DNA from: an uncultured Clostridia bacterium
Lineage (GTDB): Bacteria > Bacillota > Clostridia > UBA1381
Assembly: GCA_947626135.1 (NCBI GenBank)
Contig: CANQQZ010000004.1
Coordinates: 62,001 to 126,000, forward strand
Length of the DNA stretch: 64,000 nt
Direction of reading: 5' to 3'
The position numbers and the translations under genes are program-made. Shown piece after piece: positions 35,710 to 37,812 of the stretch (position 1 is its first letter; each line of letters starts with the position of its first letter). The notes below the pieces were generated by a model, which did not search any database, had not been told where the DNA came from, and saw nothing but the letters and a program-made list of their open reading frames with translations.

Positions 35710-36906
35710 TTATTCCAATCCTTTCAATATACTGTCAAGCTCCGATATGAAAAGCTCTATATCGAGCTCTGATATTATAAGCGGCGGCGCAAGCCTGATT
35801 GTTTTGCCCCCGCAAAGGCTGGTCAGGATCCCGCGTTTAAACAGCCCGTCAAATACGGTCCTGCCGCGCTCTGCGCCCACCTCTATGCCTATGAGCAGAC
35901 CGGCGGCTCTGACCTCGCGGATTTTATCGGGATGCTTCTCCTGTAACGCCTTGAGCTTTTTCTCAAAATACGCGCCCATTTTATTCGCCCGATTTACCAA
36001 ATCCTCTTCCTCGTAAATCCGGAACACAGCCAATCCTGCTGCCGACGCAAACGGATTGCCGCCGAATGTTGTTCCGTGATCGCCCGGCTCGAACGCCGAC
36101 GCGATCCTGTCGACCGCGCAGACCGCGCCTATGGGGATCCCGCCGCCCAGCGCCTTGGCGCAGGTGAAAATATCCGGATAGACCCCGTACCACTGGTGCG
36201 CGAACAGATAACCCGTTCTGCCCATTCCCGTCTGGACCTCATCGAAAATAAGCACTATATCCCTCTCGTCGCACAGCCGTCTGACCTTCCTGACGTATTC
36301 CCCGTCAAGCGGATAAACCCCGCTCTCGCCCTGTACCAGTTCTAATAATATCGCCGCTGTCTTATCAGTAACCGCGGATTCCAGCGCGTTAAAATCGTTC
36401 GGCGCAGCCTGCTTAAAGCCGTTTGTAAGCTCCTTATACGGTGCCTGGTATTTTGTCTGCCCCGTCGCCGCGACCGTCGCCACGGTTCTCCCGTGGAACG
36501 ACTTGTCAAGGCTTATTACCTCGTAACGGTCGCGTCCCTGCTTGTAATTATAGATTTTCGCAAGCTTTATCGCGCCCTCGTTCGCCTCTGCGCCGCTGTT
36601 GCAGAAAAATACCTTATCCGCGCATGTGCGGCTGACCAGCTTTTCGGCAAGTCTCGCCTGATTTTCTATGTAGTAAAGACTGGAGGTATGGATCACCTTG
36701 TCAAGCTGCGTCTTTAAAGCCTCAATAAATTTCGGATGGCTGTGACCGAGCGCGTTTACAGCGATCCCGCCGAGGAAATCATAATATTCCTTCCCGTCGT
36801 CAGTATACAGACGCATACCCTCGCCGCGCTCAAAGCATACCGGAAGCCGGTCGCCGAACGTGTTCATGTAATATTTTTTGTCAAGCTCTATTATATCCTG
36901 AAGCAT
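35710..36906 (-). CDS. argD: Acetylornithine aminotransferase
   Basis: DFLGGIAVNALGHSHPKFIEAL; FCNSGAEANEGAIKLA; LIFDEVQTGMGRTG; GTTFGGNPFASAA. Confidence 0.95.
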   Translation of the reverse strand: MLQDIIELDKKYYMNTFGDRLPVCFERGEGMRLYTDDGKEYYDFLGGIAVNALGHSHPKFIEALKTQLDKVIHTSSLYYIENQARLAEKLVSRTCADKVFFCNSGAEANEGAIKLAKIYNYKQGRDRYEVISLDKSFHGRTVATVAATGQTKYQAPYKELTNGFKQAAPNDFNALESAVTDKTAAILLELVQGESGVYPLDGEYVRKVRRLCDERDIVLIFDEVQTGMGRTGYLFAHQWYGVYPDIFTCAKALGGGIPIGAVCAVDRIASAFEPGDHGTTFGGNPFASAAGLAVFRIYEEEDLVNRANKMGAYFEKKLKALQEKHPDKIREVRAAGLLIGIEVGAERGRTVFDGLFKRGILTSLCGGKTIRLAPPLIISELDIELFISELDSILKGLE

Positions 36907-37032
36907 ACCAATCTCTCCCCGTTTATGAATGTTTTTCTATTATATACCGAAACGAATAAAAATTCAAGAGCTATTTTGAAAAAATATAAATTTTAGTTTA
37001 TCACACTTTTGCATATGGCGGCGCTCAACTAA

Positions 37033-37173
37033 GGCCCCCTTGTCAAAGGGGGCTGTCAGCGTAGCTGACTGGGGGATTCCATAATTACAACAAATCGCTC
37101 AAATGTGTGGTTTTCTGTAAAAATGAATCCCTCCACCGCCTTCGGCGGTCCCCCTCCCTTTGACAAGGGAGGC
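37033..37173. repeat. 141-bp repeat copy 1
   Basis: GGCCCCCTTGTCAAAGGGGGCTGTCAGCGTAGCTGACTGGGGGATTCC...CAAATCGCTCAAATGTGTGGTTTT...GAATCCCTCCACCGCCTTCGGCGGTCCCCCTCCCTTTGACAAGGGAGGC. Confidence 0.85.
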
Positions 37174-37220
37174 TTTCGCCCGCCATACGTGATTTCTGCT
37201 TACGGGAACGCTCTGCTTGC

Positions 37221-37361
37221 GCCCCTTGTTAAAGGGGAGAGGGCCAACGAAGTTGGCGAGGGGATTCCGCAATTACAGCCAATCGCTCAAATATGTGGTT
37301 TTTTTTAAAAATGAATCCCTCCACCGCCTGCGGCGGTCCCCCTCCCTTTGACAAGGGAGGC
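37221..37361. repeat. 141-bp repeat copy 2
   Basis: GCCCCTTGTTAAAGGGGAGAGGGCCAACGAAGTTGGCGAGGGGATTCC...CCAATCGCTCAAATATGTGGTTTT...GAATCCCTCCACCGCCTGCGGCGGTCCCCCTCCCTTTGACAAGGGAGGC. Confidence 0.85.
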
Positions 37362-37494
37362 TAACACCCGCCGTAAGCAAATACCCCGATAAACTAAAAT
37401 TTATATACCCATATACAATTTTAGACAAATAATAAATATGCGGCCGCATGACCGCATATTTATACTCATATTCATTCAATTTTTGTATATTTAT

Positions 37495-37812
37495 TCAAAT
37501 ATGCTTTTCTATAATATCCTCATACTCGTCCCGGCTTCTCGCGCCGACAAGCTTCTCAACCATTTTTCCGTTAACGAACAGCATGACCGTCGGTATTGAC
37601 ACGATAGCGTTGACCGCGGCGAGCTCGCCCTCCGTATCAACATTTACCTTGCCGACCTTGATTTTGCCGTCATAATCCTCGGCAATCTGTCCGATGACCG
37701 GCGCGACCATTTTGCACGGACCACACCATGTCGCCCAAAAATCCACAAGCACCGGCACGGGTGATTTTATTACCTCGCCGTCAAAATTTTTCTTCGTAAG
37801 CTCGATTTCCAT
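37495..37812 (-). CDS. trxA: Thioredoxin
   Basis: [39 protein letters not shown]. Confidence 0.97.

Follow-up and report, generated by a model that had tools for sequence, protein, structure and literature searches.

The paired 141-bp units of an intergenic repeat in an uncultured Clostridia bacterium probably derive, as non-autonomous forms, from DUF559 mobile elements; the nuclease of these elements would act on their folded, single-stranded ends. Such a mobile gene, tiny, encoding a DUF559 nuclease and provided with folded ends, is an undescribed type; no paper linking DUF559 to these repeats was found in the open-access literature. Genes of the DUF559 family are widespread and of unknown function, and the origin of BoxC/PIT-type repeats has been an open question since the 1990s; the link between them gives the repeats and DUF559 each a function hypothesis. 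The initial annotation of this DNA had correctly proposed a mobile repeat under selection for folding. It missed the partner gene, the triplex plan of the ends and the connection to BoxC and RIME repeats.

Layout of the element and plan of its ends

Within the window (the whole 64-kb stretch of DNA that was analyzed), the element lies between genes for a class-III aminotransferase (argD-like; 35710–36906, minus strand; PF00202, E = 2.7e-119) and a thioredoxin (37495–37812, minus strand; PF00085, E = 1.3e-30). It had been described as a perfect 19-bp inverted repeat enclosing two tandem 141-bp copies, and exactly this layout was recovered. The outer terminal inverted repeats, with core TAAATTTTAGTTTATC, are visible in the sequence at 36984–37002 (left, plus strand) and 37388–37406 (right, minus strand). 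They enclose unit 1 (37033–37173, plus strand) and unit 2 (37221–37361, plus strand), which are of the same kind, putative non-autonomous elements with two inverted fold-back-triplex ends, and are 86% identical over the 131 nt that can be matched in register. The central motif said to be conserved between the copies (37092–37114 in unit 1, where it is an interior remnant between both ends, and 37280–37302 in unit 2; both plus strand) occurs at just these two places in the window, with 0 expected.

Each unit end carries the two adjacent hairpins that had been annotated, with single-stranded DNA folding energies of −11 to −15 kcal/mol (z of −2.9 to −5.0 relative to shuffles). The second hairpin was found as written in all four ends, capped by a C-GNA-G triloop: GTCAGC/GCTGAC with loop GTA (37055–37069, plus strand), ACCGCC/GGCGGT with GAA (37135–37149, minus strand), GCCAAC/GTTGGC with GAA (37243–37257, plus strand), and ACCGCC/GGCGGT with GCA (37323–37337, minus strand). 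Triloops of the d(C-GNA-G) type are unusually stable in DNA. Overlooked at first was a third part of each end, a mirror copy of the purine tract (GGAGGGATT, TGGGGGATT, GAGGGGATT). The order within an end is pyrimidine-tract hairpin, GNA hairpin, and then purine mirror (GGGAGG ... GGAGGG). End 1 (37035–37076, plus strand) consists of the pyrimidine tract CCCCC(TT), GTCA, the purine tract GGGGG, the GNA hairpin, and the mirror tract GGGGGA; end 2 (37129–37172, minus strand) reads CCTCCC-TTGTCAAA-GGGAGG-ggg-ACCGCC(GAA)GGCGGT-GGAGGG; end 3 (37222–37265, plus strand) reads CCCC-TTGTTAAA-GGGGAGAGG-GCCAAC(GAA)GTTGGC-GAGGGGAT; and end 4 (37317–37360, minus strand) reads CCTCCC-TTGTCAAA-GGGAGG-ggg-ACCGCC(GCA)GGCGGT-GGAGGG. 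All four window ends therefore comprise a pyrimidine tract, a loop, the complementary purine tract, a second loop and a mirror purine tract, and match E. coli BoxC/PIT in having the layout of a purine-motif intrastrand (fold-back) triplex.

Conservation of the fold was assessed in 199 distinct ends picked solely by the two flanking tracts, with the hairpin region not used as an anchor. A stem of at least 5 bp was present in 145 of the 199, compared with 3.9% of shuffles, and the stems comprised 85 different sequences. Triloops were C(GNA)G in 74 of 97 cases; tetraloops were mostly C(GNNA)G, without restriction to GNRA. The stems thus vary in sequence without losing their pairing, and the loop stays conserved, which argues for selection on folding, as the initial annotation had proposed. 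Of 125 ends that offered a usable tract, 87 showed a perfect mirror as third tract and 12 a perfect direct copy; in CTTCCCC-type ends the mirror is imperfect.

The mirror tract and the loose tetraloops favor folding as DNA over folding as RNA. A reading of the units as functional at the RNA level (as terminators, attenuators or a small RNA), with dispersal through recombination among repeat copies, has in its favor their intergenic position beside gene ends and starts, and the capacity of each strand segment to form two hairpins. The mirror tract, however, has no base-pairing role in RNA, where purine-motif triplexes cannot form (PMC4666352), and the tetraloops show no GNRA preference. The window element has no match in Rfam at gathering thresholds, and PIT elements act neither as promoters nor as terminators (PMC4666352). 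We consider an RNA-level explanation highly improbable.

Genomic copies and the outer repeat layer

The initial annotation would have been refuted by a single-copy element or by other copies devoid of conserved GNA loops or compensatory changes, and neither was observed. BLAST against the host's own genome (an assembly of 2.33 Mb, 84% complete) gave 35 matches, equivalent to about 25 separate sites, and the best other copy, at an unrelated locus, was identical in 412 of 417 columns. Copies occur in one-unit, two-unit and mosaic forms, most of them bounded by inverted TAAATTTTAGTTTATC, and are intergenic, adjoining gene ends and starts; collapsed remnants with one hairpin also exist (C4:33997). 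When up to two mismatches were allowed, the outer repeat had 44 matches in the host genome, mostly as inverted pairs 230–600 bp apart. Copy number and paired outer repeats support the earlier view of a MITE/REP-like, multicopy mobile element. Like bacterial MITEs, the window element is short, multicopy and gene-less, with terminal inverted repeats. It differs from them in being layered, with foldable units inside an outer repeat, and in having an inner partner other than a DDE transposase; the unit ends are instead common to DUF559 elements, the candidate autonomous relatives.

Mobility is seen in presence and absence at orthologous sites. Two congeners retain the flanks of the window site and lack the element, and other host-genome copies are likewise missing from orthologous sites in relatives. 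For the inner unit, no clean target-site duplication or exact empty junction was found in the relatives searched (the purM-purN site of genome G007 and the genus of G052). The G007 site was rejected because other repeats lie there, and the G052 genus was discarded as a source because its flanks are repeated and carry extra deletions.

The outer 19-bp repeat is a separate layer that was found in the source genus only; the outer-repeat composite was present in 2 of 70 genomes of the family. It begins and finishes with TA, at junctions where relatives are too diverged for a target-site duplication to be compared. No autonomous relative with the same repeats was found in the 70 family genomes or in a DDE_3 search of five genomes of the genus. 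At another site in a congener (G004), the same outer repeats and left end are combined with a different right hairpin and second module. Other hairpin modules also occur within the same outer repeats, namely a CTTCCCCTTGAGGGGAAG...GGATGAGG module and a long TCTAAGGTCGGGGCTGCC... module (L063, at G000:C4:36068-36464, L067 and L066), and modules are swapped between species at orthologous copies (G000 versus G004, L062 site).

DUF559 genes between the same ends

The initial annotation had anticipated autonomous copies with the same ends and a transposase gene. The same ends do surround a gene, but it encodes a DUF559 nuclease rather than a transposase. In genome G022 they enclose one open reading frame that matches PF04480 (DUF559) above the Pfam cut-off, and in the loci read closely DUF559 is the single short gene between the ends. 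End 2 of the window is identical at 52 of 53 positions to the left end of one DUF559 element in other clostridia (L159) and at 50 of 53 to that of another (L115). Searches for DNA matching the window element and for DUF559 genes were run independently and then compared: of the 103 DNA matches in other genera, 19 have a DUF559 gene no more than 400 bp away, against an expectation of 0.125.

A scan of public genomes with a DUF559 alignment yielded 79 loci, mostly from gut clostridia with a few from Anaerolineaceae and Selenomonadales. GNA hairpins occur at 1.63/kb upstream and 2.46/kb downstream of DUF559, against 0.086/kb in control DNA of the same loci; these are excesses of 19 times just upstream and 29 times just downstream, on the strand expected for inverted ends. 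Motifs with the triplex plan were present within 250 bp at 75 of the 79 loci, and their density (2.9–3.5/kb) was 33–40 times the background of 0.089/kb measured in control DNA, genes and intergenic regions alike, from the same 79 loci. The loop between the first tracts falls into two classes. Both ends of one element belong to the same class in 25 of 33 cases, and the class changes 1–2 times on the DUF559 tree compared with about 10 times when shuffled, a contrast whose certainty is overstated because related sequences are not independent. The agreement between ends, and of loop class with the gene tree, indicates that ends and gene evolve as one unit.

These observations bear on whether replication slippage and illegitimate recombination could by themselves have made structure-prone repeats grow and spread, the tie to DUF559 reflecting only a shared liking for intergenic sites. 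Triplex motifs have been linked to instability and small deletions (Holder 2015, PMC4666352), and the collapsed one-hairpin remnants also speak for this view. Against it stand the 33- to 40-fold enrichment, measured relative to control DNA that included intergenic sequence, the outward orientation of the motifs, the matching loop classes at both ends and the congruence with the tree. Slippage alone is, in our judgment, a very unlikely source of the units.

The DUF559 protein is predicted to have a Vsr/EDxHD nuclease fold. An AlphaFold2 model (pLDDT 86.5) matched NGO0050 of N. gonorrhoeae first among PDB entries and I-Bth0305I, a homing endonuclease, second, with Vsr further down, and residues E24, D51, E62, D64, H68 and D77 are invariant among 41 sequences; the predicted fold thus comes with the conserved acidic and histidine residues of that class. 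EDxHD-family homing nucleases are an accepted class (PMC6083498). The resemblance of DUF559 to I-Bth0305I lies in the predicted fold and these residues. Enzymes of the I-Bth0305I type are found in introns or free-standing and have a fixed target, whereas the DUF559 gene comes with structured ends of its own and with derivatives that lack the gene.

A Vsr-like nuclease need not be a mover. It could be a passenger, or a host-control enzyme that cuts hairpins, with the repeats moved by a Y1/RAYT protein or by a DDE transposase acting on the outer repeats. The Caulobacter DUF559 protein VsrA is a proposed mismatch-repair nuclease (PMC12907096), the host genome has one Y1 transposase gene, and the outer TAAATTTTAGTTTATC composite, with its clear terminal repeats, shows block-wise movement without DUF559. 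In clostridial loci, however, DUF559 sits between inverted ends that share its phylogeny, and it is the recurrent partner of this end family across phyla. Neither candidate mover is supported: the Y1 gene is of the IS200 type (L337, G000:C2:22921-23277) with neither unit ends nor outer repeats nearby, and no DDE_3 gene was found in five genomes of the genus. A passenger or host-control role is, on balance, unlikely.

We therefore favor DUF559 as the mover, with the following mechanism. A full element would consist of an end, a DUF559 nuclease gene of about 120 codons and an inverted end, each 141-bp unit being a gene-less derivative of this single-gene element. Each end strand would fold back on itself, its pyrimidine tract, the complementary purine tract, the hairpin capped by GNA and the mirror tract of purines forming an intrastrand triplex that a very stable mini-hairpin locks. 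The DUF559 protein would recognize this fold when the strand is single, for example at replication forks, and would introduce a nick or a cut, either at the ends or at a target; host repair or replication could then place a copy at a new site between genes. The enzyme would serve gene-less units in trans. In the host genome, a further layer with 16- to 19-bp terminal repeats has come to enclose two units, and the composite has spread in turn. Such a mechanism would account for the very stable DNA folds, the mirror tract and the position of the gene inside inverted ends.

No PF04480 gene was found in the host genome assembly (84% complete), so the host units either have no mover left or are mobilized by a gene not seen there. 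They may be what remains of an earlier wave, with the outer-repeat composite now carrying them. This result counts against DUF559 as the mover, as do the many motifs that some other hosts, such as G034 and several ycjD-minus E. coli, have with no DUF559 gene.

Two further repeat types were observed with DUF559 elements or DUF559-type units. In relatives, a second palindromic family, tagged with GTAG (GTAGGGGCGGTCATTGGCCGCC, GTAGGGCGGGCTGCCCTCAGCCCGCC), lies beside or inside DUF559-type units (L113, L119, L127, L263 and G004:C77, which is L316), as if REP-like and triplex-type repeats share sites. The genus of G052 (L111 1960–2450, L151, L152) has DUF559 elements and short units flanked by a promoter-like spacer repeat (TTCGACA...TATAAAGACTGTATAATTTAGATGCC), which is in direct orientation and forms arrays at about 200-bp spacing.

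DUF559 and triplex-type repeats in other bacteria

Linkage of DUF559 to such ends extends across phyla. Eighteen distant loci, from plasmid records and misfiled chromosome records, were picked for taxonomic spread before their flanks were seen. The motif definition used here was loose (6-nt tracts, with one mismatch allowed in the third), and a control rate is therefore stated. Motifs were present within 300 bp of DUF559 at 16 of the 18 loci (Proteobacteria, Cyanobacteria, Deinococcota and Bacilli), at 1.78/kb near the gene versus 0.23/kb further away; they were absent within that distance in Thermoactinomyces and P. aeruginosa. The N. gonorrhoeae DUF559 gene is among the loci with a motif. 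A Sphingobium end has the exact clostridial order, with ACCATGC(GAA)GCATGGT between two purine tracts. The Sinorhizobium repeat beside a DUF559 gene has the same order of parts (ATCTCCCCC-loop-GGGGGAGAT-hairpin-AGAGGGGG); it is tentatively called RIME-like (RIME, rhizobial intergenic mosaic element).

On three Deinococcus plasmids, a DUF559 gene with inverted ends occupies three different junctions of the same syntenic hpa operon, in antisense orientation. Where NW-56 carries the element, D. proteolyticus has an intact junction at which the genes overlap by 4 nt. A target duplication could be assigned at none of the three hpa junctions. These elements have a reversed tract order and a hairpin external to the triplex motif; the plan of the ends thus differs from lineage to lineage.

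The closest known repeats are BoxC/PIT/TMECO, which share the pyrimidine tract, complementary purine and mirror purine and are intergenic, multicopy, sometimes in inverted pairs and of unexplained origin. The BoxC/PIT motif forms a stable triplex in vitro, and a 2015 survey counted 3610 copies in 262 genomes, with no partner gene, no association to transposons, phages or plasmids and no common function of flanking genes (PMC4666352). BoxC has a 3-nt second loop where clostridial ends have a GNA-capped hairpin, and the motif is here linked to DUF559, among others to E. coli ycjD next to BoxC, whereas the survey connected it with neither mobile elements nor classes of gene. The window ends do not follow the TMECO consensus (CCCTCNCCC N3-6 GGGNGAGGG N3 GGGNGAGGG); with shorter tracts and a hairpin as second loop, they would work like BoxC without being TMECO. 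REP/REPIN-RAYT systems likewise combine a single-gene partner with short, non-autonomous palindromes that form inverted pairs and have spread in many copies, but the partner of window-type ends is a Vsr-like nuclease and the ends have the triplex plan. The GTAG/CGTC tag of REPs is absent on the outer side of the four window ends, and the sole good Y1 gene of the host genome, unlike a RAYT gene flanked by repeats, has none of these ends nearby.

A broader proposal, which we advance tentatively, is that DUF559 could found a bacteria-wide class of mobile elements, independent of transposases and RAYTs and with ends of GNA-capped fold-back triplex DNA. Its non-autonomous offspring would include E. 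coli BoxC/PIT, the G/C triplex repeats of Neisseria and cyanobacteria, rhizobial RIME-like repeats and the clostridial units. The pairing of DUF559 with repeats in E. coli, Neisseria, rhizobia, cyanobacteria and Deinococcus could then show how these long-unexplained repeats arose and, if true, would offer an example from nature of an enzyme that partners fold-back triplex DNA. E. coli K-12, with ycjD and about 20 BoxC repeats in one genome, allows the function hypotheses to be tested.

Among the E. coli genomes sampled, those with ycjD have 9–26 BoxC places (median 19) and those without have 1–19 (median 4.5), a difference confounded by phylogroup. The ycjD-minus strains were discarded as a source of an empty site because an efflux operon occupies that place instead (PMC12817139). 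In strain KE47, the stop codon of ycjD lies inside a triplex-plan motif (one mismatch), with BoxC downstream. In K-12, a near-perfect palindrome, CACCTCATTCTGACAAAAGATTAAATCTTGTCAGAATGAGGTG, lies over the start of ycjD (L257 2508–2550), where the left end would be expected.
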